In this document: one piece after another, positions 869-25,337 of the stretch | Position numbering within the stretch: position 1 is the stretch's first letter | Layout: every line of letters begins with the position of its first letter | Virus record (IMG/VR): IMGVR_UViG_3300025276_000192 | Location: 1 to 26,270 of that record | Reading direction: 5' to 3' (one strand) | Origin: a virus | Length of the DNA stretch: 26,270 nt | The notes under the pieces: generated by a model | What the model was told of the DNA's origin: nothing | What the model saw: the letters and a program-made list of their open reading frames with translations, nothing else | Databases searched by the model: none | Program-made: the position numbers and the translations under genes

Positions 869-971
869 AGTAATTACCTCTTATTATACTTTATTAATCC
901 GACCACGGGGGTCGGATTTTAGAAGAGGAATAACTCTCTTCTCTATAAGGAACTTAAAGAAAGGGCATAAA
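869..971. promoter_or_regulatory. Divergent intergenic control region with two hairpins
   Basis: This is the only divergent intergenic region in the window, between the leftward TerS-like gene and the start of the rightward replication operon. It must hold the start signals of one or both units. It contains a 9-bp perfect hairpin (896-918) and a second hairpin made from AGAAGAG (921-927) and CTCTTCT (936-942). No convincing sigma-70 promoter with both boxes was found on either strand. The operon's first gene has an AAAGGG ribosome site just before its ATG. One of the hairpins may be a promoter for an N4-type polymerase, but this is inference. Confidence 0.5.
896..920 (+). terminator. Strong GC-rich hairpin followed by TTTT
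   Basis: AATCCGACC (896-904) pairs perfectly with GGTCGGATT (910-918) around the loop ACGGG, and the run ends in TTTT (917-920). By form it is a rightward intrinsic terminator that could stop read-through from the left block before the replication operon. Its place just upstream of that operon, where no gene ends on the + strand, is odd and leaves open a role as a hairpin promoter or leader structure. Confidence 0.5.
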
Positions 972-9814: not shown

Positions 9815-10076
9815 ATCATATAATCATTTAGCACTACGAGGTGTTCAAGTAGATGATGATGAATTTATCTCTGATTGGAACACTAACCCACTGACAAAGG
9901 TAGCCCTTGACCCAGAGCTAGCTTACACAAAGGATCTCATGCCAATCATAATGGATATTGGTATCGAAGAAGACTTGAGTGGTGGTGTGATAAACGATAA
10001 ACAAGCACGACAACGTAAGCAAGAACAGATGAAAGAGTACCGAGAGCTTCTTGCAAAGAAAGGTATGCTTAAATAA
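9795..10076 (+). CDS. Hypothetical small protein downstream of RNA polymerase
   Basis: A 93-residue protein from GTG 9795 (96 residues if TTG 9786 is used). It overlaps the RNA polymerase gene by 20 bases. The middle is acidic (VDDDEF, IGIEEDL), while the C-terminus is a basic, Gln/Lys/Arg-rich helix (KQARQRKQEQMKEYR), which suggests a protein- or nucleic acid-binding helix. It has no cysteine or membrane segment. I do not recognise the family. As last gene of the operon, directly after the polymerase, it may modulate transcription, but that is only suggested by position. Confidence 0.65.
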   Translation: MTTSSRKSYNHLALRGVQVDDDEFISDWNTNPLTKVALDPELAYTKDLMPIIMDIGIEEDLSGGVINDKQARQRKQEQMKEYRELLAKKGMLK

Positions 10077-10131: not shown

Positions 10132-13100
10132 TTAGTGTGCATAGTACTGCAATGGAATACGTCTACCGCTTTCGGTTTCGTAACCATTCATTAGTATTTC
10201 CTTTTTCAAATCTTTCTTTGCCTGATTAGTTGAGGAAATAACTTTAGGAAGTCTATTAATTAGGTTCAATTCATTACGAAGAAGACCTTTAAAAGTTTTT
10301 AGTTGTTGAACAGTAGGTTCATTGGGTGGGTTGAATGGATCGTACCCAACTTTTTTCATCTCTAAAACAACCACTTTGGACATACGAATCTTATCGTCCC
10401 GCAGCTGCGCTTCTGTCCTAACTTTATCAGAAATGTTTGTTAGTTTGCTCATACGTCCCCAGAGATTAGCCATGTACAGATTACCACTGGCAGCAGTAGA
10501 TACCTTAAGCATCCAATCCATATAGACCCTCTCATTAACTGTGAGTTTATCGTCAGGATTCCTACCTTTCATCTTCTCTTCAAAACGTTTAGTTGCCTTA
10601 GTCAGAGAGTTACGTGCTTGTTCTAAGTAACTCCATTCAAGAGTTGCATCCATCCAGTTAAGATTAATCTCTTCTAGTGCAACGTCATAACCATTAGCAT
10701 CTACTTTAAAAGCATCATAGATAGTTAAAAGATATGCATTACCATTAGATGCCCTGTTCATCCTATCCCAAGACTTTCCAGAGGCAGTCATTGCTACGGT
10801 AGCAGCATCGACAGCTTGAATAGGTGCAACAACAGATCCACCATAGGCAAACTCACCGGGGGTACCTTCAATAGAACCATCTGAGTTTGTCCTATTGCGA
10901 ACAGCTGATGCTGTAGTCTCAGTTTCATAGTGAGCAACGTTTGTTTTAGCCCTTTCAACTTGAACACCTTCTACAAATACAGGTGAGAATGCGCCTTGAA
11001 CATTCTTTGGGCCAACAATACTCTTAAAGGTGCTCATAGAAGCTTCATCATAACCTGTAGAGGATTCACCACCAATATTGATGGCCATACCTGTTGGACC
11101 ATAGATAATAAAAGGTTCATTCATAGCAGCATGTAGTGCAGCCGCAGCCCTCATAATAGATCTAGCTTCTCTGGAAGCAGGTGTCATAATCCCTTCAAGT
11201 GATACACTATATTTCTCTAAGAGAACTTTAGCTAAGTCTCTACGTGACATAGTAGAATCTACAATAGAAAGACTTGGAGCATAAGAACTTTCAGGGTCTT
11301 CAAGAAGTTTCTGATTCATAACCTCTAAGACTTCTTCAATGTCAGTTACGAAACTTTCAATCTCCTTACCATAACCATAAGTCATGATTGTTAACTTAGC
11401 TAAATCTCTATTGTTAAACACAGCACGTGCAACATCATTCAGTTGTGGAAATAAATCCTCACTGATGTTTGACCATCCACTATCTATACTCTCATTGGCT
11501 AATCCCATAAGTCTATCACGGATATCACCATCATCTAAGAGTGTTGTTCTGTTCCCCCTAGCCCTGAGGACACCAGTGTAGTAAGCCATATTGATCTCAC
11601 CCATTTGCATACCCTGACTTGCAGGACCATTGGTCTTACCATCCATATAAGCATTGACATAACTAATAAATTGTTTATCCTTGGGGTAGTTCCTTTTAAA
11701 GTCAACGTACTTAGCGAAGTCTATCAATGTGTCCATCAGAAGTGGGCCATCTTCTTTCTTATCTTTAATCATCTTGATAATCATACTATCATAATCACTA
11801 TTTGGATCAAGGCTAAGCTGATTAAACTGTGGGAATTGTGGAGAATCTAAGGGAACCCCATTAGCAATGGCCTCAGACACAGCTTCATACTGTGCATCAG
11901 TCATTTCTAATGCTTGTTGAAGACGTTTACCATACCCATACAGTTCAGACTCTCTGGCCTTAAGCATAACTTCTCTTTGACGAGGTAAGAAAGTATCACC
12001 AGCATCTGTTATTGTATTACCTGCAGAGTCTTTAACTTTAGACAATAAGATCATGGCATACATCTGACGTAGGTTCTTCTCTTGCCTGTTTCCAGGTCTA
12101 ATAATAGCCCCTACAGGTGCTCTTGTAGCAAATCGAACAGCCTTAGATGTCACTGGGTTAAAGAAAGATTGCTGAGGTGTCAGCCTCCCCTGAAAACCTT
12201 GAACATTATAAGTAAGGTAGTTAATACCATTACGATCTTGGGCTAATGCTTGAACTTCCTGTGCTAATTTATCCATCAAATTGTTGATGTTCTCTTGTGG
12301 AATATAAAGTTCTTCATTTAGTTGTGGATTATTGTCCATCCTACGTTCCTGCATCTTAGCAGCAGCATTAAATTTGTTCATTCTTGATTGACCAACATTG
12401 TTGATCTCAGCCTGCCAAGTAGTGTGGTCATTGGACAAGAGTGTAGCTAACGCAGTAGAATATAAGATTTTCATACGTTGCTTATCAACCACATGACCTA
12501 CCTGACCTAAGTTATTAATAGCTTCTTCAATAATCTTACCCATCTTCTGACCAGAATTACCACCAGACACTGCCCTAACTACATTCTTACCAACATCAGT
12601 ATCAACCATTTGGTTAGGTGTTTTCTGAGGTCTCACTATTTGACGAGGAAAAAGTTTCTTACGATCAAGCTCACCTTCTTTAATAGCTGCCTCACCTTCT
12701 GCAGAAAGTGTATATACTTTTTGCCGAGTATTTGGATCAGTAGAGGTTGTGACCAGTGTTGGGTTAGAGTCTGCCCATAACTGTTTGAACGCAGCGCCAA
12801 GTGTCTCAGCCTCCTTACGGTTCAGTTTATCTGGTGAAGCTAATGCTTGAACCATAGGATCAGTCTCAGGCACACCCTGACTTATCATAGCCTGCCTATT
12901 CCTACGCTGATACTCAAGATGTATCCTGTTACCTATCTGCCCGTTACCTTCAGCAAGTGTAAGCGTTTGGTTTACACCTTCCTTAGGTACAGATGTGTCT
13001 CCCATTGCCTCTGAAACAGGGTCAACAGTGCTTTCCATATTACCACCAAAAACATCCTCAACAATAGCAGAAGCAATTTGAGTATACATTAGATTAGGTA

Positions 13101-13680
13101 TCTTCATACCACTCTCAGATTCTATAATTGCATCTGCCCTACTGATAGCAGCTACGATATTACCATCAGCGGTCTCAGCGATAGCGTCTGCAAGTGCTGG
13201 ACCTGATACAGGAGATTTACCTTGGGTTAGTGGGTAAGCTGCATTCCCAAGGGCTGTTAAGTTTAACCCAAGGTTACCATGATTTACATTCTTAAAAAGA
13301 GTCTTTGCACGAGATCTAATATTACCACCAGCTTCAGATTGTGCTGCAACAGATAACTCTTGTTTCCTAACAGGGGGTGTGACCCGTCTATACCTTTGGT
13401 TACCAGTCTGAGCATTGGTAGCCATGTCAGGAACTAAGAATCTGTCATCATTACTTTGTTGTTCTGGGTTAATTAAATCAGGCGCTAACCCAGATGCAGC
13501 CTGTGTGATCTCTGCAATTTGTTCTGGAGTAGTGTTAGCAATATCTTGTAGGATGCCTGATGAGGCAGGTGAAGATGCAGGTTGTTGAGGGACTACCTCT
13601 TCCTCCTGCCTAACAAATCGATCTTCTAAAGATTGAGAGGGGAGCTCAGCACTCCCCCCTTTAATTATTGGTATCGCCAT
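10132..13680 (-). CDS. Diverged single-subunit RNA polymerase, probable virion-packaged (N4 vRNAP-like)
   Basis: An 1182-residue protein. In order it shows F496-Q-G-R499 followed by SFFNP (counterpart of T7 DxxGR...FNP); motif A MDGKTNGPAS with D680; motif B NRDLAKLTIMTYGYG with R758, K762, Y770 and G771, an exact match to the T7 Rx3Kx7YG spacing; APIQAVDAA (D958), like the APNFVHS element; and motif C TIYDAF with D989. Spacings are R499-D680 181, D680-K762 82 and K762-D989 227. About 495 residues precede the core, starting with a low-complexity Pro/Gln/Ser region. Its length is similar to the N4 vRNAP central domain. It has no cysteine. It is the last gene of the structural operon, beside ejection proteins, and starts two bases after its neighbour behind AAGGAGA. 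It was probably injected with DNA; activity and packaging are inferred. Confidence 0.82.
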   Translation of the reverse strand: MAIPIIKGGSAELPSQSLEDRFVRQEEEVVPQQPASSPASSGILQDIANTTPEQIAEITQAASGLAPDLINPEQQSNDDRFLVPDMATNAQTGNQRYRRVTPPVRKQELSVAAQSEAGGNIRSRAKTLFKNVNHGNLGLNLTALGNAAYPLTQGKSPVSGPALADAIAETADGNIVAAISRADAIIESESGMKIPNLMYTQIASAIVEDVFGGNMESTVDPVSEAMGDTSVPKEGVNQTLTLAEGNGQIGNRIHLEYQRRNRQAMISQGVPETDPMVQALASPDKLNRKEAETLGAAFKQLWADSNPTLVTTSTDPNTRQKVYTLSAEGEAAIKEGELDRKKLFPRQIVRPQKTPNQMVDTDVGKNVVRAVSGGNSGQKMGKIIEEAINNLGQVGHVVDKQRMKILYSTALATLLSNDHTTWQAEINNVGQSRMNKFNAAAKMQERRMDNNPQLNEELYIPQENINNLMDKLAQEVQALAQDRNGINYLTYNVQGFQGRLTPQQSFFNPVTSKAVRFATRAPVGAIIRPGNRQEKNLRQMYAMILLSKVKDSAGNTITDAGDTFLPRQREVMLKARESELYGYGKRLQQALEMTDAQYEAVSEAIANGVPLDSPQFPQFNQLSLDPNSDYDSMIIKMIKDKKEDGPLLMDTLIDFAKYVDFKRNYPKDKQFISYVNAYMDGKTNGPASQGMQMGEINMAYYTGVLRARGNRTTLLDDGDIRDRLMGLANESIDSGWSNISEDLFPQLNDVARAVFNNRDLAKLTIMTYGYGKEIESFVTDIEEVLEVMNQKLLEDPESSYAPSLSIVDSTMSRRDLAKVLLEKYSVSLEGIMTPASREARSIMRAAAALHAAMNEPFIIYGPTGMAINIGGESSTGYDEASMSTFKSIVGPKNVQGAFSPVFVEGVQVERAKTNVAHYETETTASAVRNRTNSDGSIEGTPGEFAYGGSVVAPIQAVDAATVAMTASGKSWDRMNRASNGNAYLLTIYDAFKVDANGYDVALEEINLNWMDATLEWSYLEQARNSLTKATKRFEEKMKGRNPDDKLTVNERVYMDWMLKVSTAASGNLYMANLWGRMSKLTNISDKVRTEAQLRDDKIRMSKVVVLEMKKVGYDPFNPPNEPTVQQLKTFKGLLRNELNLINRLPKVISSTNQAKKDLKKEILMNGYETESGRRIPLQYYAH

Positions 13681-13682
13681 TA

Positions 13683-16600
13683 CTAATTCTCCTTGTTGTC
13701 CTTATAGTTCCAACCACCACCAGTCATTAGACTAGCTAGTCTTTTATTAGTATCTGTAAAAGGTCCAATTCCAGGGGCTGATTTTAAACCCTGATATAAA
13801 GAACGTTCAAAGTCACCCTTAGCTGCATTCAAAGTTGCATCACCGAGCCTACCAACGTACCCAACAGTTGGGCTTTCACCTGTGGCTTGATTGTATAACC
13901 AACCACCAAGACCCTCAGAGCGTTGACCATAGATAGGTGCAAAGATATCAACAATCCTTTCACCTGTGCCAAGCAAACCAGAAGACATGACACCACGGCG
14001 AATGTACTCAGGTGTGTCCAAGTATGGATTACCAAGTGTACCTTCGTCATCATCATCGTCATCAAACTTTATCTCATCTTTCATAGCCTGTGAGAAGAAC
14101 CCTAAGGCAATCATAGTAGACATGAGAACAAAGGTGTTGTACTTCATTGCTGGAGTGCCACGTTTGATATAGTCATTCCACATACGAGGTATATGGTTTG
14201 CTGTAAAGGTAGAAATGAAACCTTGGAACTGTGTAAACAAAGCGAACCTTGGATCTTGATAGAGCAAAGGACGATTAGCTGCACTTGGAAGGGCTACTGC
14301 TTGGTTAATAAAGTTGTAGGTAGCTTCCTTCATTGTTTGATTCCATGCATCCATCTCTTTAGCACTTAAAGGTAATCCTTTTTCAATAGCATTCATCATA
14401 GGAATGAATTGTTCTATAGGTATTCCCAAGCTTCTTAGCTTTTGCTCAGCCTCTTGAGCCTCACGAGTAGGGCCTTGAGATACAATCTCCCCATCCTTAG
14501 TGACATACTCTGTTACAGTAGTTTTCTTCTTAGTCTTTTTATCAACAGTAGTAGTTGTTCTTGCCTCGTTCCTTTGATATAATATTTTAGAGTTAATAGA
14601 TATAAAATCATAGGCCATACTTGCACGAACAGCACGAGTATAGTCAGTCCATTGAGTCAAACCAATAGCCCTAAAGAAAGCTTCCATAACATTCTTACGA
14701 TTGTCTGAAACCTCACTGACACCTGTGGTTGTTGCAGCGCCTACTTCCCAAGCATAGAAACCAGTTTCTCTAAGAAGCTTTTGACCTTCACTACCATTGT
14801 TCTGTTGAAGTATACCTTCATCAGTGCTGGATTCAACCTTCTTTAGATTAGGCAATAACCCCGCCACTGCTTCTTGAGCAATGTTTCTAATGCTTCCATT
14901 CTTACCAAAGATTTGTTCCTTAGTGAGCGCCCCTTGTGTCATAGCCATTTCAGGCAGTGAGGAAAATGTTGCAAGTGGAAGTGCGGATAGTGTCATCCAG
15001 AACATTACATTCTTCTGGAACCTCATAAGCTTTTTACCAGCTTGGGTAGTCGGCCTGTTGTAGTTACCTGACACAGCCTCTAAGATATTCTTAACCTCAG
15101 AAGCTACACGATTAACCTCTTCCTCAGGCACACCCTCGGCCTGCATCTTGTTCAAGAGTTTAGATATAATCTCTCCATCCTTACCAACATACTTCATTTG
15201 AGTTACGTAACGAGCCGCAGTCTTACTTGCATTAGCAACGTTAGCGAAGATGTCTTTCTCATAGAACTGATCAAACTTTTCATTCTGAGATAGACCAAAC
15301 TTCCTACGCTTGTGTGATGGTGGGTTGAGAGATCCTACATTACTGATAATAGCATCCGCAGAGTCCAGATCGTAGACGTTTGGGTTGTCTCTGATCTCAT
15401 CTGTAATCCTTAAAGCTAGGTCAGGAGTGATTCCATACTCAGATATTAAAAGATTTTTAAACTTCTCTGGATCCTTAGACACAGCAGCCTTATCAATTGA
15501 CTTGTACTTAAGGAGGTAACCTTTAATATCTCCCAAATCAGCACCAGCATCTAATTGGTTTTGACGGAGTTCCTTACCAAGAGTCATCAATTGATTACCC
15601 AAGTCAATAATTACCTGCCTGTTCTCAGTGTCCTTTGGTACAAGATTCTGATTAAAGTTACCTCGTTTATCGATAGCTCCCCTCAACACTTTGTAAGTCA
15701 TGTCACTTACCCTAGCTCTATCAGAAGACTTAAACACTCCTGCAATAGATCGAAGACCCAATCTCTTATAGTAAGCTTTTGGGTCATGCACTTGGTTCTT
15801 GTAGTAAGTTACAAGATGGTGTTGTGCAGCTTCGATACCAGAACCACCATGTAAAGGAGTCAGTGTCCCACCTAAGATAGATGCCAATGCACGAGCAGAC
15901 CTAGACTTATCTAGTGTAGCTTTTGGAATTGCATTTGTAACAGCAGCTTGCCAAAGATTAGAAACATTCATTACAGATGTAGATGCACGTTCCATAAATG
16001 TTTTCTGACCAGTTGTTTGCTTGTGCTTATCTCCTCTTTGATTAACGTTGGGACCGAGGTTGTCAGAGGCATCCACTTCTTTCTGAACATCTGACAGTAG
16101 TTGGGGTGTAGTTCTTACAGTCCCACCGTGATTTGCCTTCTCTTCTTCTATGTATCTTTCATTGTCTGATTGAGATATTGGTTCTCCAAAACGAGCAGCT
16201 GCATCCATCCAAGTTATCTGATCTTTAACTGTACCGGGAATAGAAAAGGCACCACCTAAGGCAGTGCCAGCAATAGCAGCATTAGCTAAACGTTCTTTAA
16301 ACTCTTCGTAGTCAAACACTTTATCTGAACCTTGAACAGCAGCAAGATAGCCAATAGCTTCTTGACCAACTTCAGTCAGTCCCTCAGATACAGAACCAAC
16401 ACCTACAGTTCCTAAAGCTCTCATAGAAGCCTGCTTAGCTGTTATCTGAGCCTTTGCAATCCTCTGTGCTTCATTGGCAAACTGACCAATGGCAGAGTCT
16501 GCTTCTGCTTTAACAAGTATCTTAGCATCTAGTAAACTTATTCCACGAGATTTAGCAAGCGCCTTTGGTATCTCCTCTCGTATAGTTTGTATTGGGTTTT

Positions 16601-17771
16601 TTCCTATACCTCCAATACCTTTAAGACCTAACCTATCAAGGACAGCTTGAGCTATGCCAGAACCAATTGCAATGGTAGCTGACTTACTATCGTTATCACC
16701 TTCCATGTCATTCCAAGTTTGACCTGCATACATGAATGATGGGATAGCTACAGCACCTGAGACAGCAAGAGCAGTACCTATAACAGGGGCAAGTACAGTT
16801 CCAGCAAGAGCCGAACCAGCAGTGATTGCCATATAAGGAAGAGACAAAGCCATTGTGTTCCCAAGGTACTCAATGAAACCTCCAATGTTATCAATATCTT
16901 TGTAGTTGTTAGTCGTATATCCAAACTCAGCCAGCTTACCTTGCTGCCTACGTACACCAGCTTCACCCCATCTTTCAAGACCCTCAGCTCCAGTAGAAGA
17001 ACCAAACAGATTAGCAATACCATACGCACTCTCACCTACACTGATCCACCCTTGTTCCCAAGAGTCGCTGATAGGGTTGAGAGATTTGTTGTCAAGTGAG
17101 ACACCAGGTCTTCGGATATCTACATCACGATAAAAATACTTATTCATTTCGCTTGTAGCTTGATCCCTAGACATTCCTTGGGTCATGAAGTAACTGATGT
17201 AAGAAGCTCTTTCTTTTTCATCTACAAGGGTTTGTTTAAAGCCTAAAGACTTGGCACCTTGAGATCTCTCAGCAATCTCAATATCAACTGCAGCTTTATC
17301 AAATGCAGAAGGTTCGTATGTACCCTCGAAAATAGCCCTGTCCCTAGCAGCTGTTGTGGCTGTCTTTTGAATCCTATCAGAGTCTGTTGAGAACTCTGTT
17401 AGATCCATTGCACCTGAACTCATTAACATGCCTGAGAAAGTTTCCCCAACATCATTGACAAGATCAACCATCTGACGAGTACCACCAGAATCCATCATAG
17501 GGGAACCGTCTGAATTGAACACAGGTTTTATGTTATTAAACCCCTGTTCATTAGCTAGTCGGGAGATAATGCCAGTGGTTTCTTTACCACCAGCAGTACC
17601 TTCCTTAACTTCCCCAGTGTATAAGATCTTAGACACCTCGGCAGCATCATAACCACGAAGACGATAGTTGGGACCATCTGGGTTATCCAATGTGTCACCA
17701 TCGATGAAGTGAGTACCAGTACCTGCTAAAGTATTAGGCTTAAAGTTACTAATATCATCTAATATTCCCAT
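13683..17771 (-). CDS. Large internal virion (ejection) protein with N-terminal SNase-like domain
   Basis: A 1362-residue protein. Residues about 20-160 look like a staphylococcal nuclease-type domain: D24-G-D26-T, then R37-L-R-G-Y-D42-A-A-E45, matching SNase D19-G-D21-T, R35, D40 and E43. A VGETFSGMLMSSGAM segment follows, then an AARDRAIFEG helix, as in the SNase C-terminal half. Residues about 297-349 are hydrophobic and Gly/Ala-rich, apt to insert in membranes. Another hydrophobic stretch is near 922-942, and one near 1210-1229 precedes six aspartates (1237-1242). The C-terminal third (RPLLYQDPRFALFTQF, GLLGTGERIVD) looks like large internal proteins of marine podoviruses. No cysteine. 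AAGGAG precedes the ATG. It likely forms part of the DNA-ejection conduit. Confidence 0.75.
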   Translation of the reverse strand: MGILDDISNFKPNTLAGTGTHFIDGDTLDNPDGPNYRLRGYDAAEVSKILYTGEVKEGTAGGKETTGIISRLANEQGFNNIKPVFNSDGSPMMDSGGTRQMVDLVNDVGETFSGMLMSSGAMDLTEFSTDSDRIQKTATTAARDRAIFEGTYEPSAFDKAAVDIEIAERSQGAKSLGFKQTLVDEKERASYISYFMTQGMSRDQATSEMNKYFYRDVDIRRPGVSLDNKSLNPISDSWEQGWISVGESAYGIANLFGSSTGAEGLERWGEAGVRRQQGKLAEFGYTTNNYKDIDNIGGFIEYLGNTMALSLPYMAITAGSALAGTVLAPVIGTALAVSGAVAIPSFMYAGQTWNDMEGDNDSKSATIAIGSGIAQAVLDRLGLKGIGGIGKNPIQTIREEIPKALAKSRGISLLDAKILVKAEADSAIGQFANEAQRIAKAQITAKQASMRALGTVGVGSVSEGLTEVGQEAIGYLAAVQGSDKVFDYEEFKERLANAAIAGTALGGAFSIPGTVKDQITWMDAAARFGEPISQSDNERYIEEEKANHGGTVRTTPQLLSDVQKEVDASDNLGPNVNQRGDKHKQTTGQKTFMERASTSVMNVSNLWQAAVTNAIPKATLDKSRSARALASILGGTLTPLHGGSGIEAAQHHLVTYYKNQVHDPKAYYKRLGLRSIAGVFKSSDRARVSDMTYKVLRGAIDKRGNFNQNLVPKDTENRQVIIDLGNQLMTLGKELRQNQLDAGADLGDIKGYLLKYKSIDKAAVSKDPEKFKNLLISEYGITPDLALRITDEIRDNPNVYDLDSADAIISNVGSLNPPSHKRRKFGLSQNEKFDQFYEKDIFANVANASKTAARYVTQMKYVGKDGEIISKLLNKMQAEGVPEEEVNRVASEVKNILEAVSGNYNRPTTQAGKKLMRFQKNVMFWMTLSALPLATFSSLPEMAMTQGALTKEQIFGKNGSIRNIAQEAVAGLLPNLKKVESSTDEGILQQNNGSEGQKLLRETGFYAWEVGAATTTGVSEVSDNRKNVMEAFFRAIGLTQWTDYTRAVRASMAYDFISINSKILYQRNEARTTTTVDKKTKKKTTVTEYVTKDGEIVSQGPTREAQEAEQKLRSLGIPIEQFIPMMNAIEKGLPLSAKEMDAWNQTMKEATYNFINQAVALPSAANRPLLYQDPRFALFTQFQGFISTFTANHIPRMWNDYIKRGTPAMKYNTFVLMSTMIALGFFSQAMKDEIKFDDDDDDEGTLGNPYLDTPEYIRRGVMSSGLLGTGERIVDIFAPIYGQRSEGLGGWLYNQATGESPTVGYVGRLGDATLNAAKGDFERSLYQGLKSAPGIGPFTDTNKRLASLMTGGGWNYKDNKEN

Positions 17772-17792
17772 TACATATCTCCTTGTGTTAAA

Positions 17793-20700
17793 TTATGCTA
17801 TTAGTCCATTCACCATACTATCCATGACATACTGCATTAACCCACTTACACCAATAGCAGCACCTGTGTCAATGTGGACTTGCCTTAATTCAGGGTCTAG
17901 ATCTCGCCAATCGTTGTAAGTATCTGTAGTCATTAGCCAAGATGAAACCTGAGTATCATTCATGCCAGCTAATTCTTCTTTACCTTCACGAGCTGCCGCA
18001 TCCTTAAGAGTCTTTATGAAAGTTGTAATATTTGCTATAGGAACTGGTTTATCAAAAGTAGCCTCACCCTTACTATTCTTTGAAGGTAAGAAGAAGTTTT
18101 GTGCATCAGTAGTATTAGATTCTACCCAAGCTCTTGAGAAATAGTTACTTAATCCAGAGATTTTCTTACCAGACTTAGTATCAATCAATGCTTCATTGTA
18201 AGCCTTTTCTACAAGCTCTTCCATCTGCTCTAGTTCCATACCATTCTCAATAGCAAACACAACAGCTTCCCTTCCAATTTTTGCTTTTGGAATGCCCAGA
18301 TATGATTGACCAGTCACAATAGCACCAGCACTGTCTCTCTTTGGATTATTAGTATCTAGTTGTCCTACAAACGTTGATATCTTATCTCTTATTGATTTCT
18401 TGTATGTCTGATTGGCTTGTGTATTAGGGGCAAACCTACCATCGTTGGTAAGTGTACTTAGATTAACCTGCTTATTGCCATCAAACCAATAATTACCATC
18501 ACCTACTTTTTTTTGAATTAAAGTAATTTCCCTACCTGTTCGCCTATCATACATGGTCATTGGCTGAGCACTAGTGGGAACGGCAGGGAGACCTTTAGTT
18601 ACAAGATCACCAAAGTCCATTGATTTCTTAAATATTGCAAGACTTTCCTTAGTATGTGTATCTGCAATAGCAACCTTATTATAGGTACTTTCCTTAGCAT
18701 CTACCCTAGCAATGTAGTTCTTACCTGCAAAGGCAAGAGCTTGATTACCACTAAGACCAGTAGCACGACCACCAAGGTACATAACAGCAGCCCTAGCAAG
18801 TTCTTTACTGTCAAACAGATTCCCAAAGACACCTTTGAGCATAGCCATAGCACCTGTTACTTGAGGGGTTTTCTTGGCTAAGGCCTCTTTTGCTAATCGA
18901 TCAGCCTCATCTTTAGCAGCCTTTATTTGTACTGGAGTTAATTCAGTCTCATTTACCCCTAAGTCTTTAACAATGTCTCTAGCATTATCTATAGGTTTTA
19001 CAACAGTAGTAGTGTCTACAGTTGTATTATCAGCAGGGTTGACATAAGGTACGATATTATCACGTTCCTGTTCTATCCTAATAACATCAGAGTTCTTCCT
19101 AGTTAGTTGCATCTCAGCTCTTTTTTCAGCCTCTTGCGCCTTTGCAAGTTCCAACTTATTAGCTTCAGCTTGAGCTTTAGCATCTGCCAGTTGTTGAATT
19201 GCCTGCTGACTTCCAGGGTTTAATCTTATGTACTCTTCAAGATTTGTAATGACGTTTAGAGTAGTTTCCAAAGTATCTCTCGCAGAGTAAACCTGCTTTT
19301 CTACTATATCAAGAGGGCCTCGTTCAAGAGTATCTCGCATAATACGGTCCATGTAGAGATTGTCTCCACCTGTACTCATATCACTCTGGTCAGTCGCAGC
19401 TTCAATTTCGTTTAACCGGATTTGATTAATTGCTTGATCATCCCCGTCAGTAGCAAGACGTTCTAATTCAGTTCTAGTCATACTCTTATAGTTCTTATTC
19501 ACTACAGGGGGTATGTCATTATCCAAATTAGGAATATTTTCTCTAGTTTCTTGGTACAGAGTGCCGTATGGAGGGATATTGTAACCAGTCAACTCCTCTA
19601 AGCTTGTCATTGATGGTGTGAATGCCCCTGAAATAAGATTAGATACCTTGCTGTGTTCAGGTGATCCAACCTCTAGCCTTTTACGAAGATCTATTAATCT
19701 TTTCTGTGCTTCAGACCTACGATATTTATCTGGGTCATTACCAATGAAGTCATTACCAATGACATTACCACCCATAGGTATATTATTACCCATCATCCTA
19801 GGAACATCTTGAATAGATGCTGGAAGGTTGTAACTCATCAACTCATCTAGGCTTATCATCGATGGGCTTAATGCCTTTGTAATAATATCAGATATCTTGA
19901 TGTGTTCAGGTGATCCAACAGGTAAACTTTCACGCAGATCCATTAACCTTTGTTGTTCTACAGTCCTACGAGAAATAGCATCACCAGTCTGACCATACCC
20001 TGAAGCACCTAAAGTACCAAATCCTGTCTCCCTAGGATCACTAATCACTTGTCTATCCTGACCATTAGTGAAGATATTACCTTGACCAAATGTCTCATTA
20101 CCTAAGCCTGAGCCCGGTCTTGGTACACTGTAATTCAATTGCTTGAATGGAAATTCCTTCCTAGCCTCTTCAACACTATCAGAAGATCCTTCAAGTAATG
20201 ATTGATCACTGTTAGGGATTGGGAGGTATGAGAGGTCTGGTGGAGGTGTGTTCATCAATTCAGGTCCAGCCACTGGAGGAGAGTTGGGGATTGGGAGATA
20301 TGAGAGGTCTAATGGAGGTGCAACAACTGGCTCCGGAGGGGCTTGCCTCTGAGGCATCTTATCAATTAGAAGTTGCGATTGATCAAACTTAGTAAGAGCA
20401 TCACGCTCATTCCTTTTAAACCAAGCGTTATCAACATCATTTTGAAGATTACGCCGAGCCATTTGATCTAGAGATAACCCGCCTGTATTTAAGTGGATAG
20501 GGCCACCCATATTTTTCTCGTCAGTATAACCAGCAGTATAACCACTACTAGGAAAGTTAGAGATACCTCCCGCTCCCATGTCTGAAAGCCTTGGACTATC
20601 TTGTACCCCTCTAGGAGTAGGTACACCAATAAACCTTGGATCAGGAACACTTACCTGATTTGCAATCATTACATTCGGATCAAGTCCAGCATACATGTCT

Positions 20701-21713
20701 TGAGATGGCATCATCTGATTAGCACGAGTTGCATTAGCAAGTTCCTGTTCTATCCTAATAACATCAGAGTTTTGAGGTTGAGGAGGTGCTGCCTGCATCT
20801 GTGGTATTAAATTAGGTGCCATACCAATCTGGCCATACCCTGAAGAGCCCTCAAGTTCCCTAAGATCATAATTCTGCTGTGGTTCAGGAGAGGTTGGACG
20901 TAACTCTGGACGTAGTAATGTGTCAGAAGTTGTCATAGTATCTGGGCGTGACTGTGGACGTAGTGATGTGTCAGGGGCCATTGGACGTGACTGTGGACGT
21001 AGTGATATTTCAGGTGCTGCAAGAGGTGAAGTGACAGGAGCAACTTGAGTTTGGTCTTGAGCTAAGAAAACCTTAACCATATCATCAGAACGATCATGAG
21101 TTTGACCAGCCCAGTCGCTATCATTAGCCTCAAAGGCAGCCTTAGCGTAGTCACCTGCTTCAACAGCTTCGATCATCTTTTCAAATTTAAATTGACCAGC
21201 TCCACCAAGTTGAAATGCCATATTAGTCAACCCATTTTGAACAGATTCTGGTAATTGATCCCAATTAGAAAAGTTCTTTTTTGCAGCATCCCTAGCAGTA
21301 CTTACATCATCTAGGAGCATCTGATCTAACTCAGCTATACTATATGGTTTGTACTGTGTACTTTTGTTTTTACCATCCCACGCATATTTTTTAAAACTAG
21401 CTGGAAGTTTGTGACCAGTACCTATAGTGGCATGTCCTTCGGTATCTATATACACATAGTCTCTAAAGCCTTCACGCTTTTCAAGATTCTTTAGCCAAGG
21501 CGCTTTATCAGGTACCCCACCAGAACTTCCATCATTGTAATGTTGAATACCACCACCCATGTTTTTCATTGCACGATGCTGTAAACCTGCGCTATTCATC
21601 TGCTCTATCACAGGAGCAAACATAGTTGATGCTTCCTTATTGAGGACAAATTCTCCGGGTGTTAGCATCGCAGGTACAGTATCCCGATTAGTCGGATCTG
21701 TTTTATCAATCAT
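17793..21713 (-). CDS. Virion-associated lysozyme and repeat-rich internal protein
   Basis: A 1306-residue protein from ATG 21713. Near the N-terminus is DTVPAMLTPGEFV, a motif recurrent in phage structural proteins. Residues about 70-220 are a T4-type lysozyme (GH24): E81, D90 and T96 in KREGFRDYVYIDTEG...ATIGTGH have the same spacing as T4 E11, D20 and T26. Next comes a long disordered region with repeats: LRPxxRP three times, LSYLPIPNS twice, NSDVIRIEQE twice, and a duplicated block of about 50 residues. A helical, coiled-coil-like stretch (about 804-884) and a globular C-terminus follow. No cysteine. It probably digests peptidoglycan during DNA entry; no separate endolysin is in the window. 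An AGGAG with six-base spacing supports this start over one at 21785. Confidence 0.83.
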   Translation of the reverse strand: MIDKTDPTNRDTVPAMLTPGEFVLNKEASTMFAPVIEQMNSAGLQHRAMKNMGGGIQHYNDGSSGGVPDKAPWLKNLEKREGFRDYVYIDTEGHATIGTGHKLPASFKKYAWDGKNKSTQYKPYSIAELDQMLLDDVSTARDAAKKNFSNWDQLPESVQNGLTNMAFQLGGAGQFKFEKMIEAVEAGDYAKAAFEANDSDWAGQTHDRSDDMVKVFLAQDQTQVAPVTSPLAAPEISLRPQSRPMAPDTSLRPQSRPDTMTTSDTLLRPELRPTSPEPQQNYDLRELEGSSGYGQIGMAPNLIPQMQAAPPQPQNSDVIRIEQELANATRANQMMPSQDMYAGLDPNVMIANQVSVPDPRFIGVPTPRGVQDSPRLSDMGAGGISNFPSSGYTAGYTDEKNMGGPIHLNTGGLSLDQMARRNLQNDVDNAWFKRNERDALTKFDQSQLLIDKMPQRQAPPEPVVAPPLDLSYLPIPNSPPVAGPELMNTPPPDLSYLPIPNSDQSLLEGSSDSVEEARKEFPFKQLNYSVPRPGSGLGNETFGQGNIFTNGQDRQVISDPRETGFGTLGASGYGQTGDAISRRTVEQQRLMDLRESLPVGSPEHIKISDIITKALSPSMISLDELMSYNLPASIQDVPRMMGNNIPMGGNVIGNDFIGNDPDKYRRSEAQKRLIDLRKRLEVGSPEHSKVSNLISGAFTPSMTSLEELTGYNIPPYGTLYQETRENIPNLDNDIPPVVNKNYKSMTRTELERLATDGDDQAINQIRLNEIEAATDQSDMSTGGDNLYMDRIMRDTLERGPLDIVEKQVYSARDTLETTLNVITNLEEYIRLNPGSQQAIQQLADAKAQAEANKLELAKAQEAEKRAEMQLTRKNSDVIRIEQERDNIVPYVNPADNTTVDTTTVVKPIDNARDIVKDLGVNETELTPVQIKAAKDEADRLAKEALAKKTPQVTGAMAMLKGVFGNLFDSKELARAAVMYLGGRATGLSGNQALAFAGKNYIARVDAKESTYNKVAIADTHTKESLAIFKKSMDFGDLVTKGLPAVPTSAQPMTMYDRRTGREITLIQKKVGDGNYWFDGNKQVNLSTLTNDGRFAPNTQANQTYKKSIRDKISTFVGQLDTNNPKRDSAGAIVTGQSYLGIPKAKIGREAVVFAIENGMELEQMEELVEKAYNEALIDTKSGKKISGLSNYFSRAWVESNTTDAQNFFLPSKNSKGEATFDKPVPIANITTFIKTLKDAAAREGKEELAGMNDTQVSSWLMTTDTYNDWRDLDPELRQVHIDTGAAIGVSGLMQYVMDSMVNGLIA
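19064..19094. repeat. 31-bp perfect direct repeat, copy 1
   Basis: The 31 bases from GTTCCTG to CAGAGTT are identical to 20741-20771. Both copies lie in the lysozyme-bearing virion gene and encode NSDVIRIEQE in the leftward frame. The flanks differ, so this is a short, recently copied or strongly conserved unit. Confidence 0.85.
19569..19970 (-). repeat. Diverged tandem duplication of about 50 codons
   Basis: Two blocks, about 19569-19721 and 19816-19970, encode similar segments: both contain LRxxLxVGSPEH, then a helix, then PSMxSLxEL and YNxP. They are separated by a linker of short repeats (NVIGNDFIGND). Both keep the frame, so the duplication is at protein-domain level and of some age. 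Confidence 0.75.
20215..20320 (-). repeat. 34-bp imperfect direct repeat encoding a SYLPIPN segment
   Basis: Bases 20215-20248 and 20287-20320 differ at about three positions. In the leftward frame each encodes PPxDLSYLPIPN, 24 codons apart, in the proline-rich region of the lysozyme-bearing protein. Confidence 0.8.
20741..20771. repeat. 31-bp perfect direct repeat, copy 2
   Basis: Identical to 19064-19094, 1677 bases away in the same gene and same reading frame. Confidence 0.85.
20896..21013 (-). repeat. Three near-identical 31-bp units encoding LRPxxRP
   Basis: Units at 20896-20926, 20944-20974 and 20983-21013 share the core TGTGGACGTAGTGAT with few changes. Each encodes an LRPQSRP or LRPELRP peptide directly after the lysozyme domain, forming a proline/arginine-rich linker. 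Confidence 0.8.
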
Positions 21714-21719
21714 ATCATT

Positions 21720-21724
21720 CTCCT
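21720..21724 (-). promoter_or_regulatory. Ribosome binding site for the lysozyme-bearing protein
   Basis: AGGAG on the leftward strand, six bases before ATG 21713 and inside the 19-base gap after the upstream gene's stop. The frame is open 24 codons further to an ATG at 21785, but that lies inside the upstream gene and has no ribosome site. Confidence 0.75.
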
Positions 21725-21732
21725 GATAGTGG

Positions 21733-23028
21733 TTACTTCTTTTGTTTTGGATAAGGGACTTTACCCCCTTTGTTAAATACTCCAAAGAGCTTTCCTAATC
21801 CAAGACCAATGCCTACAGGTCCAAGAGCTGCCATCATAGCAGAGCCTCCTGCAGCTGCGGTAGCAGCAGTACCAGTTGCAGCACTACCTCCCAGCATACT
21901 TCCTAGAGAACCCATGATACCCTCTTTAGCTGCGAGAGCACCAAGACCATTAGTGATCCCATTATTAACAGCTCCCATAGCAACCTTTTCACCAATACCA
22001 CTTAAAGGTCCAGCTTCTTGTTGAGGGGCAATCTGAGCTTGCATCATTTGACGTTGACGTATCTCGTCTTCACGAAGACCAGTGTTAGCTACTGAAATAC
22101 CACCTGTGTTGTAACCTATAGGGCCTCCCATGTTACGTGCGCCCCAGAAGCGATTAGTTTCGCCTGTTTTGGTATTAACGTATCCTGTACCTGCACCCGT
22201 ATAGGCTGGTGTATTTGAATGGAATGAATTATTCGCTCCATCATCAGAAACAGGGGTTGGATCGTAGGTGCTTATAGGTGCTGTTGCTAGGTTAGATGCT
22301 ACAGTTGCTCCAGGAATTAATTTAAGAATGGGGGCTTTATTAACGGCATTTTTTATCCCACTAGTAATACCTCCATAGATATCCTTAACACCTCCAAAGA
22401 ATCCAGTAGTAGGATCATTTGCATTGTAACCACCACTTACATTTTTAAAACCTGCTGAAGCCATAGATGCTGCAGCATATTCTTCTGGTGTCATAGTCTT
22501 CTTATCTTCAGCGGTAGGTGCAGGATTAGCTGCAGCCATCTCCGCATTGTAACCTGGATTTTCTGTTACATCAATCTTAGAAATAGTCCCATCTGGATTA
22601 ACCTTACCATACACGGATTCTAAACCAAACGTTGCAAAAGCATTATTTACATTTTCATGTGCTACATCCTTATGACCACCATAAGTAGTATAGTTACCCC
22701 CACCAGAACTACCAGCCAAAGGGGCTATGTTAGCTGTGTTCATTTCGTCTGCCTTTTTAAGACTAGCTTCTTGAACTTCAGGGGATAAACCAGAGGCTGC
22801 TAATGCTTGCCGTAATTTACGGCGAGAGTCTGCAAGTGTGTGGTAATCAGGGACACCGGATGCATTACTACCAGCTCCATAACTCAATGGACCAGAAGTG
22901 TTACCGCTTGAATTACCACTCAAGTAGTTCTGAATAGCTGGTGCTGCATAACCCCCCTGAGGTATCCCAGTGTTGACTGCAGGTTGAACTACACCACCTT
23001 CTTGATACTTTTGAATTATATGTTTCAT
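21733..23028 (-). CDS. Gly/Ala/Asn-rich internal virion protein
   Basis: A 431-residue protein without cysteine. Most of it is low-complexity and rich in Gly, Ala, Asn and Thr. An ARNMGGPIGYNTGG segment near residue 300 repeats one found in the next protein. The C-terminal region (about 350-418) is strongly hydrophobic with glycine-zipper spacing (for example GPVGIGLGLGKLFG), suited to membrane insertion. The last residues, NKGGKVPYPKQKK, are basic. Its ATG overlaps the stop of the preceding gene as TAATG. Position and composition suggest a T7 gp14/gp15-like ejection protein, but no homologue is recognised with certainty. Confidence 0.6.
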   Translation of the reverse strand: MKHIIQKYQEGGVVQPAVNTGIPQGGYAAPAIQNYLSGNSSGNTSGPLSYGAGSNASGVPDYHTLADSRRKLRQALAASGLSPEVQEASLKKADEMNTANIAPLAGSSGGGNYTTYGGHKDVAHENVNNAFATFGLESVYGKVNPDGTISKIDVTENPGYNAEMAAANPAPTAEDKKTMTPEEYAAASMASAGFKNVSGGYNANDPTTGFFGGVKDIYGGITSGIKNAVNKAPILKLIPGATVASNLATAPISTYDPTPVSDDGANNSFHSNTPAYTGAGTGYVNTKTGETNRFWGARNMGGPIGYNTGGISVANTGLREDEIRQRQMMQAQIAPQQEAGPLSGIGEKVAMGAVNNGITNGLGALAAKEGIMGSLGSMLGGSAATGTAATAAAGGSAMMAALGPVGIGLGLGKLFGVFNKGGKVPYPKQKK

Positions 23029-23723
23029 TACTTACCACCCCCACCACCTGATTGGGTACTTGTGCTCCCTATAGCAGGAGAGCCGTACAAACCAAACAGT
23101 CGTTGAATACCTTGATAGGCTGCATCACCTTCGTTTTGATTCTGCTGCTGAATAGCTGAACCAACACCGCCAAGCATAGAGGCACCTGCGCCGAATTGAT
23201 TCTGAAGACCAGTGCCAGCATTTAATACTCCACCTGCCCCAGACAAAGCTGCTGAACGGCGATTGGCAAGCTCAGCTGCAGCCATATCTCCACCCACTTT
23301 CATAGCAGATGTGTCCATAGACTGTTGTGCTCTAGCACTGCCAAGATTACCTGACTGACTAAACTGACCTCTCTGTTGACCAAGTACGTCACCAACAGCG
23401 GTACCAATACTTTCTTTTAGCGCAGTTGTTTGTTTACCTAGAGCGTCAGCTCCAAACATACCAGTTCCAGCTGCTGCGTTACGATAGGCTTCAGTAGCCC
23501 CATAGCTATCGGCAGCAATCTTATCGTATACACCACCTGTACCACCTAATTCTTTTTGTTTCTTCATAGCAGCAAGCTGTTCTGGAGTAAATCCTGCAAC
23601 ATTTTCATAGGCACCTGAACCATATAAATCTACTGCACTACCTAAGCTATCCTCAACATAGGGCTGAGCATAATCTGGTAACCCTGTTGTACTAGTTGTT
23701 GTGTTTCCACCACCACCTGACAT
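23028..23723 (-). CDS. Gly/Ala-rich internal virion protein (gp14-like position)
   Basis: A 231-residue protein without cysteine. Both ends are glycine runs (SGGGGN at the start, SGGGGGK at the end). The middle is Ala/Gly/Gln-rich, with a PEQLAAMKKQKELGG helix and a QRGQFSQSGNLGSARAQQ stretch. This resembles small DNA-ejection proteins of podoviruses in composition and place, between the tail genes and the very large internal proteins. A perfect AAGGAGGT ribosome site precedes its ATG. It is coupled to the next gene by a TAATG overlap. Confidence 0.6.
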   Translation of the reverse strand: MSGGGGNTTTSTTGLPDYAQPYVEDSLGSAVDLYGSGAYENVAGFTPEQLAAMKKQKELGGTGGVYDKIAADSYGATEAYRNAAAGTGMFGADALGKQTTALKESIGTAVGDVLGQQRGQFSQSGNLGSARAQQSMDTSAMKVGGDMAAAELANRRSAALSGAGGVLNAGTGLQNQFGAGASMLGGVGSAIQQQNQNEGDAAYQGIQRLFGLYGSPAIGSTSTQSGGGGGK

Positions 23724-23724
23724 A

Positions 23725-24120
23725 TTAAACCTCCTTGGTGAGCGTTATAAACGGCTCACGGTATCCATATTGTTTTAGGGCGCGAACCCAACCCTTTCGC
23801 CCATAGACTACAGTTCTTTTGCAATCATTGAAACGTGCGAAATCTTCTAGTACTTTTAGTATCTCAGGGCCATGAGAGAACCAACCAAAAGATGTGCAGG
23901 CAACTACAGCTAACTGTCGTTTACCTTCTATTTCTTCAAAGCGAGTTATACAAACTTCACCCTCTTCTCTTACCCAGCACTGTCCAACAGCACCGAGGCA
24001 TTGTAAAAAGAGTCCGTGAGATGTCACAACCCCAGCTCCATGAACCAATGCTTCTTCAACTAAGGGCCTCAACTTGTTCCATTGTTCTGCCAACTCAGGA
24101 CCACTTAATAGTTTTATCAT
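23725..24120 (-). CDS. GNAT-like small protein (T7 gp13-like position)
   Basis: A 131-residue protein. The end, YGRKGWVRALKQYGYREPFITLTKEV split by its W and GY residues, has the W-x2-L-x3-G-[FY] pattern of the GNAT C-terminal half. The beta-strand and helix order before it (QLAVVACTSFG, then EILKVLEDFAR) also fits. Proteins like this are common beside internal virion proteins in podoviruses and may be structural or assembly factors rather than true acetyltransferases; I see no clear acetyl-CoA loop. It has five cysteines, in contrast to the five cysteine-free genes after it. It overlaps the preceding gene by four bases (ATGA). Confidence 0.6.
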   Translation of the reverse strand: MIKLLSGPELAEQWNKLRPLVEEALVHGAGVVTSHGLFLQCLGAVGQCWVREEGEVCITRFEEIEGKRQLAVVACTSFGWFSHGPEILKVLEDFARFNDCKRTVVYGRKGWVRALKQYGYREPFITLTKEV

Positions 24121-25337
24121 TTCTTTAACTCCGTAGTTTCAAGGAATCTGTTTTGCACAGTCGGACTTGAAGGGGAACCCCCATTAAGTTTTACATGCAC
24201 TGTGATAACCCTAGTACCTGCAGAAGGTGTTAGTGTCATAGCAATGGTTATCATCTGTTCGTGATATGTATGTGTAGTACCATCTGTAAAGAAACCAGCG
24301 GCTGCATTAAATACACGTTGAGATACTCCATCAAGTCTTATATCAAACTGAACTAAGTTAGCTCCGTCTAGACCACAATTAAATAGAATAGATGTAAGGT
24401 CACCACTAGAGGTAATACTTAAAGTTTCTAATAACTGATATGTTGAAGTTGGTATTAAACTAGCACCAGTAAATGTAGCAAATTTATTAGACACAGCATT
24501 ATTAGTTATCTGTCCTGTGCCAACTACATTGCTGTTAAGTTGAGCAGCAGATGTTATGATACCTGTGGAGGCTAACTTATTCCCAACGATACTACCTGCA
24601 GCTACATTATCACCATCGATATTAGTTACAGTATTACCATCTAGTGTAAAGTCACCAGATTCAAATGTTACAACCCCTGAGAAAGAAACAACTACTCTAG
24701 ATATTCCACCAGTAGCTGCGCTAGTTGTGGCTGATCCTGTATCATCTGTAAATATAAAATCAGAAAAATAAATCAAAGTAGTTGAAGTTGCACTAGCTGT
24801 TGGGGCAGTCTCTGACCACCCTGAAGTTAATGAGGATAGTGCGAGGGTTGCCCATGTCACTGTAGCAGTTGGGGGACTAGGTGTTCCGGTTGAAGACGGG
24901 AAGTACACCCTCCTAGAGAGCGCCCTAGGTGCTGGAGCACCATCATTACCATCCTCAGACAACAGAGCCACAGTGTTCCAAGTGTTTGCATCAGTTATTG
25001 TAGCTTCTAGGGTTGATACATACCTAAATGTAATCCAAAGATACTTACCACCTGATGCTGGGATTGACCCCACCCATCCATTGTTAGCTACAATAGTTAC
25101 ACTCCCAATGTTTGTATAGTTATACGAGACACTGGAAGGTCTAGTTGGAGCTGTCTCTGTTGTAGTTCTTTGATACAGATAAATAGCAGTGTTACCTGTT
25201 GGTCCAGATGAGCTGGTTGAAGATGATGATCCTTGAGTTCCAGGCAAAGCACTACCCATATTAAGAGCTTGGGTTATTTGATTTGTCCAAGAGTCTAGGG
25301 TAGCATCTCCGGTAAAGGGTGGTCTGATAATTGCCAT
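24117..25337 (-). CDS. Tail/fibre-like structural protein
   Basis: A 406-residue, Ser/Thr-rich, beta-rich protein with a single cysteine. It begins AIIRPPFTGDATLDSW, a form of N-terminus seen in virion proteins of marine podoviruses. A Ser-rich linker (about 38-47) follows, then a domain with AIYLYQRTTTETAPTRP that resembles fibronectin-like or tip-protein repeats. The middle has TNIDGDNVAAGSIVGNKLAS and QITNNAVS, typical of tail fibre shaft sequences. The C-terminal about 120 residues form a likely beta-sandwich. It probably contributes to the tail tip or host recognition. AAAGGAGGT precedes ATG 25337, which overlaps the upstream stop. Confidence 0.65.
   Translation of the reverse strand: MAIIRPPFTGDATLDSWTNQITQALNMGSALPGTQGSSSSTSSSGPTGNTAIYLYQRTTTETAPTRPSSVSYNYTNIGSVTIVANNGWVGSIPASGGKYLWITFRYVSTLEATITDANTWNTVALLSEDGNDGAPAPRALSRRVYFPSSTGTPSPPTATVTWATLALSSLTSGWSETAPTASATSTTLIYFSDFIFTDDTGSATTSAATGGISRVVVSFSGVVTFESGDFTLDGNTVTNIDGDNVAAGSIVGNKLASTGIITSAAQLNSNVVGTGQITNNAVSNKFATFTGASLIPTSTYQLLETLSITSSGDLTSILFNCGLDGANLVQFDIRLDGVSQRVFNAAAGFFTDGTTHTYHEQMITIAMTLTPSAGTRVITVHVKLNGGSPSSPTVQNRFLETTELKK

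Follow-up and report, generated by a model that had tools for sequence, protein, structure and literature searches.

A cysteine-free gene block opposite a T7-type RNA polymerase gene

The window analyzed here, a stretch of 26,270 nucleotides from an IMG/VR virus record (IMGVR_UViG_3300025276_000192), carries five consecutive minus-strand genes, which we call A to E: gene A (10132-13680; 1182 aa), gene B (13683-17771; 1362 aa), gene C (17793-21785; 1330 aa from a TTG start, 1306 aa from an ATG at 21713), gene D (21733-23028; 431 aa) and gene E (23028-23723; 231 aa). An initial annotation had claimed that these genes lack cysteine (Cys) altogether, and translation of positions 10132-23723 bears this out, with no Cys in any of the five proteins (0 in 4,512 residues). 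The comparison with codon composition that the annotation had called for points the same way: codon-position base composition predicts 61.5 TGY codons in genes A-E, and none is found. Out of frame, TGT or TGC occurs 408 times (frame +1, 70; frame +2, 338).

The counts given for the neighboring genes were also confirmed. Gene F (23725-24120, minus strand; 131 aa), gp13-like by synteny and the boundary marker of the cassette, encodes 5 Cys, and the T7-type RNA polymerase (RNAP) gene (7520-9814, plus strand; 764 aa), which is convergent with gene A and served as an internal control, encodes 10. The boundary of the block had been described as sharp. This holds at gene F, but the genes past it (24117-26098) have one Cys each, and the boundary appears sharp mainly because the adjoining gene encodes a Cys-rich gp13-like protein. 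In G001, a 57-kb genome near-identical to the window, ten other structural proteins contain 12 Cys in 4,522 aa (0.27%). At this rate about 12 Cys would be expected in A-E, and zero is still unlikely.

Cysteine content in relatives and in control phages

Cys was counted per family on 90% nonredundant sets drawn from about 70 IMG/VR loci. In these relatives, down to about 25% identity, A, B, C and E encode almost no Cys (0.005-0.04%). The gene A family has 5 Cys in 47,779 aa (about 0.01%), with 37 of 42 nonredundant members lacking Cys, and the gene B family has 2 in 38,611 aa (31 relatives). Most of the 14 Cys found in 35,070 aa of the gene C family belong to one knuckle motif, and 29 of its 34 relatives have none. 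The gene E family has a single Cys in 3,856 aa, leaving 17 of 18 relatives Cys-free. Gene F stands at 2.1% (25 Cys in 1,171 aa; eight relatives), and the T7-type RNAPs from the same genomes as gene A stand at 1.4% (297 Cys in 21,543 aa; 29 relatives) versus 0.01% in A. Gene D behaves differently from its neighbors. In several relatives it ends in a C-terminal four-Cys knuckle (CxC-x4/5-CxC), which, judging from the aligned sequences, is lost in the window; gene D thus lies outside the constrained set, and among the five genes the Cys-free rule is kept by A, B, C and E only. The proposal of five ejected proteins is therefore reduced to four, since the Cys counts in relatives bear it out for every gene but D.

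As controls, the proteins of six reference phages were sorted into known or syntenic ejection proteins, other structural proteins and replication or packaging enzymes. The ejection class has 7 Cys in 15,207 aa (0.046%), the other structural proteins 129 in 19,621 aa (0.66%) and the enzymes 122 in 8,962 aa (1.4%). The comparison with known ejected proteins, also proposed initially, gave the expected match: the known or syntenic ejection proteins of T7, SP6, P-SSP7, P22 and N4 are Cys-depleted like A, B, C and E, in contrast to replication enzymes and to most of the remaining virion proteins, among them capsid, portal and tail proteins. The putative ejection proteins of epsilon15 have 1-2 Cys each. 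Absence of Cys had been taken to mark ejected proteins. The Cys level of A, B, C and E is indeed that of the ejected class, but 8 of 40 nonejected structural proteins in the six phages are also Cys-free, four of them scaffolds. Because scaffolds lack Cys though they are not ejected, absence of Cys alone is no proof of ejection.

Predicted fold and catalytic residues of gene A

Gene A had been described as polymerase-like, and the evidence goes further, to a single-subunit RNAP fold with all five catalytic residues conserved. An AlphaFold2 model of residues 130-1182, built from a 51-sequence alignment, reached pLDDT 86.5 and pTM 0.86; an earlier model from six close sequences (pLDDT 35.7) was useless and was discarded. 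The model matches T7 RNAP with Z 28.9 and the N4 mini-vRNAP (3c46) with Z 24.6, the latter over 750 aligned residues spanning the whole model (VIA). Foldseek gave E values of about 1e-14 for T7 and mitochondrial RNAPs and of 3.8e-12 for the RNAP domain of the N4 virion RNAP (vRNAP; 9pnq), and matches in a viral library include N4-like vRNAPs.

All 51 sequences keep the catalytic residues D680, K762, Y770 and D989, and the 48 that cover the position of R499 all have this residue, at a mean column identity of 24%. By alignment, R499 of the T/DxxGR-type motif (QGFQGR) is encoded at 12184..12186, motif A (DGKTNGPA, whose first residue is D680) at 11620..11643, motif B (R758..K762..Y770) at 11371..11409, and the motif C aspartate D989 (IYDAF) at 10714..10716, all on the minus strand. 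The K-Y spacing is 8, as in N4. Full-length relatives have about 1,116-1,366 aa.

Sequence similarity to active RNAPs is low, at 10-13% over the aligned regions. Gene A matches the RNA polymerase family PHROG 414 with E 0.0012 in the window and 2.9e-5 in a relative (L140), and one distant member has a weak match to an N4-like vRNAP (E 0.07). The first gene A alignment, used as an HMM against solved structures, found nothing, and neither cassette DNA similarity nor a gene A protein search gave a match in 50,697 phage records. Profile comparisons with N4 vRNAPs and T7 RNAPs gave weak, mostly collinear matches, partly because the N4 set is narrow. A DNA pattern for DGKTNGPA recovered the gene A family together with Cys-free giant proteins, one of which has 42% identity to N4 gp50 over 2,164 aa. 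The sequence matches of gene A to N4 gp50 itself are weak, so that it may descend either from an N4 vRNAP or from a T7-type RNAP. Gene A is best read as a compact virion-type single-subunit RNAP; the fold and catalytic residues are found in the model and alignments, and we infer its packaging.

Cassette order and promoters

In every locus that is long enough, the order C-B-A (usually E-D-C-B-A) faces a T7-type RNAP gene. Gene A always lies tail to tail with this Cys-rich RNAP and always accompanies B and C where the contig reaches them. By tblastn, the T7-type RNAP of the window matches Autographiviridae-type RNAPs and that of Roseobacter phage CRP-7 (36% identity). The core of a T7-class promoter, TAAGTTCCTTATA followed by G, occurs at 22 sites in seven sequences, versus 0.1 expected from four shuffled genomes. 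In the window, TAAGTTCCTTATA followed by GAGAAG lies at 943..964 on the minus strand, with a start site at about 943.

The search for a vRNAP promoter identified none: hairpins are present, but no early-gene hairpin family is common to the four genomes compared. An N4-like hairpin (5-bp stem, 3-nt loop) precedes three early genes of G001 but is absent there in three other genomes; it may alternatively be read as a weak sigma-70 site, and we do not claim it as a promoter. Sigma-70-like sites are no more numerous in the early region than shuffling predicts, a result compatible with host transcription as well as with its absence. The early genes could instead be transcribed by the host RNAP.

Comparison with known phages

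Gene B is a putative large ejection protein at the position of T7 gp16. It matches a virion structural protein family (PHROG 6958; E 1.8e-19), and its N terminus resembles a degenerate staphylococcal nuclease (DGDT...RLRGYDAAE); the SNase Pfam match in the L140 relative is below cutoff. Gene C encodes a putative internal or ejection protein with a phage lysozyme domain near its N terminus (Pfam PF00959, E 3.6e-9; PHROG 2083, internal virion lysozyme motif). By synteny, gene E would be a small ejection or membrane protein at the T7 gp14 position. Gene F is syntenic with gp13 of T7, P-SSP7 and epsilon15, all Cys-rich; epsilon15 gp13 is annotated with a GNAT-fold match. The cassette resembles the gp13-gp16 cluster of T7 (and of SP6 and P-SSP7) in gene order and sizes, in having large members without Cys and a lysozyme domain in one of the internal proteins, and in a Cys-rich gp13. 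It differs in that the lysozyme lies in gene C, not in the protein at the gp16 position (B), and in the RNAP gene added at the end. At HMM sensitivity, A, B, C and E show no detectable sequence homology to T7 gp14-16 or N4 gp51/52, and the B, C and E profiles have no significant match to T7, SP6, P-SSP7 or P22 proteins. The location of the set is where T7-like and N4-like phages hold their ejection proteins.

With N4 gp50 (Schitoviridae), gene A shares the single-subunit RNAP fold with T/DxxGR, A, B and C motifs, the catalytic residues (R424, D559, K670, Y678 and D951 in N4, corresponding to R499, D680, K762, Y770 and D989), the motif A form DGxTNGP (DGVTNGP in N4) and the lack of Cys. Like gp50, it is the last gene, at the 3' end, of an internal or ejection cluster that converges with the genome's other half. 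At 1,182 aa versus about 3,500 aa, however, it lacks the large N- and C-terminal domains and falls outside the size range of N4-type vRNAPs (2,842-3,820 aa). Nor does it have the signature that defines N4 vRNAPs, ExDGxxxG (PMC10654107), since NAYMDGKTNG has Tyr for the required Glu. A further difference from N4 is that its genome carries a T7-type RNAP. The portal of G001 belongs to PHROG 1216, the family of N4 gp59, whereas its capsid protein is in PHROG 1328 and that of N4 in 1357.

Another close counterpart, CRP-7 (MK613349), has the same cassette (gp33-gp38) and a T7-type RNAP. HMM matches link F to gp38 (E 3e-41), E to gp37 (2.5e-35), C to gp35 (5e-19) and B to gp34 (1.6e-91); gp36 carries a four-Cys knuckle, unlike gene D of the window. 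CRP-7 gp33, annotated as hypothetical, occupies the gene A position with 1,235 aa and 0 Cys, and shows QxxD, an IHDA motif C and a motif-B-like RAAKDYxRGLVVAGLYG. Its alignment to gene A is weak (domain E 0.005), motifs A and B are altered, and hhalign of gene A against the gp33 family was not significant. On synteny, motifs and the weak HMM domain match, gp33 is a probable homologue of gene A.

A putative vRNAP has also been proposed for StenR_269 and Zobellviridae on the basis of size, helices and absence of Cys (PMC10747016), and it likewise is a virion protein of large size, free of Cys and encoded close to where the structural region ends. The example from ICP2 (gp6) scores -1.1 against the gene A family and has no visible RNAP motif, so its assignment as a vRNAP is unsupported. 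Absence of Cys thus marks ejection-class proteins, not RNAPs.

Discussion

Our preferred reading, with a probability of roughly 0.78, is that a marine podovirus of the CRP-7 type encodes its internal virion (ejection) proteins in genes E, C, B and A, with A as an added virion RNAP. They would form a T7-like set of a small gp14-like E, a lysozyme-bearing C and a gp16-sized B, with the stand-alone RNAP at the end of the operon. Upon adsorption, the four proteins would exit via the short tail, traverse the envelope and refold. Unfolded threading through the tail and passage across the periplasm is a published hypothesis for the N4 vRNAP (PMC3715699, PMC2784036, PMC3915230). Lack of Cys would prevent wrong disulfides while the proteins are unfolded in the virion core, the tail and the oxidizing periplasm. 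The gene A product, refolded on the cytoplasmic side, would transcribe the early region and with it the gene for the T7-type RNAP, which would in turn transcribe the late leftward operon (A and the virion genes) from promoters of the form TTCTCTAAGTTCCTTATA followed by GGGAGA.

It is unlikely that A, B, C and E are ordinary structural proteins, Cys-poor as phage structural proteins generally are and with no need of ejection. The low Cys content of the other G001 structural proteins and the 8 Cys-free nonejected proteins in the controls fit such an account, but in A, B, C and E Cys is scarcer by a factor of at least about seven (0.005-0.04% versus 0.27-0.66%), a depletion that extends over about 125,000 residues of nonredundant relatives and has the same value as the known ejection class. 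A doubtful but possible account, compatible with ejection, is that Cys was selected against by dense packing in an extracellular oxidizing particle rather than by threading or the periplasm. Every ejected protein also stays in the capsid for the life of the particle, and scaffolds, crowded in the procapsid, are Cys-free as well. Capsid, portal and tail proteins are equally exposed outside the cell, yet they keep Cys, and scaffolds are gone before maturation, so that crowding, not oxidation, would have to act.

Gene A could also be a second RNAP made late in the cell and left unpackaged, its absence of Cys being inherited or accidental. It does lie in the late operon, like any late gene, but we consider this improbable: the adjoining T7-type RNAP has the same fold in the same genome and is rich in Cys, gene A, like N4 gp50, closes the internal-protein cluster at its 3' end and keeps company with B and C, and it is hard to see what purpose an RNAP synthesized only late in infection would serve without being packaged. 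Folds are often reused among virion proteins, and the low similarity to active RNAPs would suit a catalytically dead relative retained in a structural role, as an ejection protein or as an anchor for pulling DNA. A dead enzyme, however, needs none of the five catalytic residues conserved across the divergent 51-sequence alignment, which makes this account very improbable.

Possession of a virion RNAP is considered the hallmark of N4-like phages, and such RNAPs are regarded as giant proteins with many domains. Candidates of less than 2,500 aa were dropped from a 2023 survey of vRNAPs (PMC10654107), a cutoff that would have hidden the gene A family from it. Current annotation misses this compact second RNAP, which is apparently carried in the virion, and our best reading is that gene A encodes a small virion RNAP that stands alone and is ejected along with a T7-like internal set, a lineage not found in the literature searched. 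Passage through a tail channel narrower than the enzyme, and refolding afterward, would be simpler to study with a natural virion RNAP that is compact and forms a separate chain. The T7-type RNAP of the same genome offers an internal control for the constraints that ejection places on a protein. With CRP-7 as a cultured relative, key tests are possible now. The Cys rule, quantified on six model phages, provides an inexpensive way to predict which proteins are ejected, scaffolds being a known class of false positives. We consider it likely that compact ejected RNAPs of about 1,200 aa are an undescribed, widespread lineage in CRP-7-like podoviruses. In these phages the polymerase would be a chain of its own, apart from the ejection machine, and would act in relay with the T7-type RNAP of the same genome, and strict exclusion of Cys, broken mainly by four-Cys knuckles, would mark the whole ejected set.

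Cysteine is absent from five consecutive genes

Translation of the five consecutive minus-strand genes A (10132-13680), B (13683-17771), C (17793-21785), D (21733-23028) and E (23028-23723) confirmed that they contain no Cys codons, and that the flanking 131-residue gene F (23725-24120) and the T7-type RNA polymerase (RNAP; 7520-9814, plus strand) contain 5 and 10 Cys, respectively. Base composition per codon position predicts 61.5 Cys codons for the five genes. TGT and TGC are plentiful out of frame (70 and 338 in the two other frames), indicating that the amino acid and not the trinucleotide is avoided. The boundary at F, described as sharp in the initial annotation, does exist, but the contrast is heightened since F encodes a Cys-rich gp13-like protein; the other structural proteins of G001, a 57-kb genome near-identical to the window, have about one Cys apiece (12 in 4,522 residues).

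Relatives of gene A were gathered by iterative collection scans (about 70 loci, 96% to about 25% identity), and Cys was counted per family after removing members >90% identical. The counts were 5 in 47,779 residues for A, 2 in 38,611 for B, 14 in 35,070 for C, 21 in 5,011 for D, 1 in 3,856 for E, 25 in 1,171 for F and 297 in 21,543 for the neighbouring T7-type RNAP. The rare Cys of A and B are mostly single substitutions common to sub-lineages. Thus, A, B, C and E are constrained across relatives, but D is not: a compact CxC-x(4-6)-CxC motif holds nearly all Cys of D and most of those of C, and D is Cys-free in the window because this motif was lost. The motif is present or missing as a unit; its location varies among genomes, either the end of D or within C, and it looks like a metal site that shifts within the ejection region. 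An example of this four-Cys knuckle is GGKVPCSCGKTSCKC; it occurs at loci L008, L009, L010, L093, L095, L122 and L129, in gene C of L005 and L101, and in gp36 of L015. D of the window terminates in KGGKVPYPKQKK, with the knuckle gone.

Cys depletion is common to the ejection class. In six control phages (T7, SP6, P-SSP7, epsilon15, N4 and P22), ejection proteins, either known or placed by synteny, have 7 Cys in 15,207 residues, and 13 of 19 have none, including T7 gp15 and gp16, P22 gp7, gp16 and gp20, and N4 gp50, gp51 and gp52. The 40 other structural proteins have 129 Cys in 19,621 residues, with eight Cys-free (four of them scaffolds), and replication and packaging enzymes have 122 in 8,962. 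Absence of Cys therefore marks the ejected class, yet is not specific to it. It has already been noted in N4-type virion RNAPs (vRNAPs), and the same reason proposed (PMC3715699, PMC2784036, PMC3915230, PMC4837373, PMC5795418). The Cys-free observation on the five genes is confirmed; its interpretation as a probable ejected set is partly supported, and is extended here.

Gene A probably encodes a virion RNA polymerase

A has a weak match to PHROG 414 (RNA polymerase; E 0.0012); the match of a distant relative to it is stronger (E 2.9e-5). The structure of A predicted from a 51-member alignment (mean pLDDT 86.5, pTM 0.86) retrieved T7 and mitochondrial RNAPs and N4 vRNAP from solved structures with Foldseek (E 1e-14 to 1e-11). 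A structural aligner gave Z 28.9 over 531 residues with T7 RNAP and Z 24.6 with N4 mini-vRNAP, the latter over 750 residues across the whole model. D680, K762, Y770 and D989 are invariant in the alignment, and R499 is Arg wherever the position is present; these correspond to the N4 vRNAP catalytic positions D559, K670, Y678, D951 and R424 (PMC2784036). The strongest support for a different constraint on A is that the T7-type RNAP, which shares its fold and genome, contains 1.4% Cys vs 0.01% for A.

We conclude that A is a putative virion RNAP that very probably works like the Schitoviridae vRNAP, from which it differs in size and signature. A is a polypeptide of its own, about as large as an RNAP domain, and lacks the N- and C-terminal domains that N4 gp50 has; its motif A reads DGKTNGPA vs DGVTNGP in N4. 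A DNA pattern for DGKTNGPA recovered the A family and giant proteins without Cys, of which one shares 42% identity with N4 gp50; being pattern-retrieved, these are illustrative and not independent evidence. Environmental contigs L089, L060 and L073 encode giant N4-like vRNAP-type proteins, nearly or wholly Cys-free, with motif A DGKTNGPA; that of L089 is only about 21-25% identical to N4 gp50. No account of such a compact vRNAP alongside a T7-type RNAP was found in the literature searched, which excludes subscription journals and bioRxiv.

Gene order and relatives

Wherever a contig is long enough, the order F-E-(D)-C-B-A lies on one strand and meets, on the opposite strand, the T7-type RNAP, primase-helicase and DNA polymerase. 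C carries a phage lysozyme domain, and the B N-terminus is degenerate SNase-like in some members. In the window, B, putatively ejected, begins with an SNase-like DGDT...RLRGYDAAE in which the apparent catalytic Arg, Asp and Glu are kept. The portal groups with N4 gp59 in one family; the capsid protein falls outside the N4 capsid family. The sole isolated relative found was the short-tailed Roseobacter phage CRP-7 (PMC6918029), in which gp34, gp35, gp37 and gp38 are clear homologues in the cassette and an unannotated Cys-free protein, gp33, occupies the position of A. Most close relatives share a Cys-free ORF of 94-98 residues between the T7-type RNAP and A (9786-10076 in the window); a strong hairpin resembling a bidirectional terminator comes after it. 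The G001 contig ends share a 127-bp overlap, which circularises the 57.3-kb sequence; this genome is therefore probably complete, and the window represents part of a genome of this kind.

Promoters and hairpins

A 14-nt core, TAAGTTCCTTATA|G, is present in five copies per genome in four long genomes (G001, G003, G004 and G006), against 0.1 expected in four shuffled genomes. The full site, TTCTCTAAGTTCCTTATA|GGGAGA, is laid out like a T7 promoter and lies at 943-964 on the minus strand of the window. Such sites, presumably used by the T7-type RNAP, precede the late leftward operon, a 550-residue gene (probably a terminase) and a 130-residue gene, and one faces the early genes. The T7-type RNAP gene has none a short distance upstream, so that the host or A would be needed for its first transcription. 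Sites resembling sigma-70 promoters were at chance level in the early region, and no hairpin promoter for A was established. The leader of the 943-964 promoter contains a conserved hairpin, AATCCGACC-ACGGG-GGTCGGATT (896-918), which has no Rfam match. Its stem changes in G006 are paired, and several genomes carry it a second time at another place. Five tandem hairpins, conserved in G003 and G004, occupy 3313-3440 of G001 (L016), where the early region has 390 bp of non-coding sequence.

A model for ejection

Work on N4 and the related phage DEV has shown, or strongly supports, that vRNAP ejection follows that of two smaller proteins, which build a channel across the envelope (PMC12633501, PMC10925440). 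On the same scheme, the channel here would consist of E, C and B, and B may functionally stand in for the missing terminal domains of N4 gp50. Lacking Cys, these proteins would be spared disulfide errors while unfolded. A would then follow through the channel and start early transcription.
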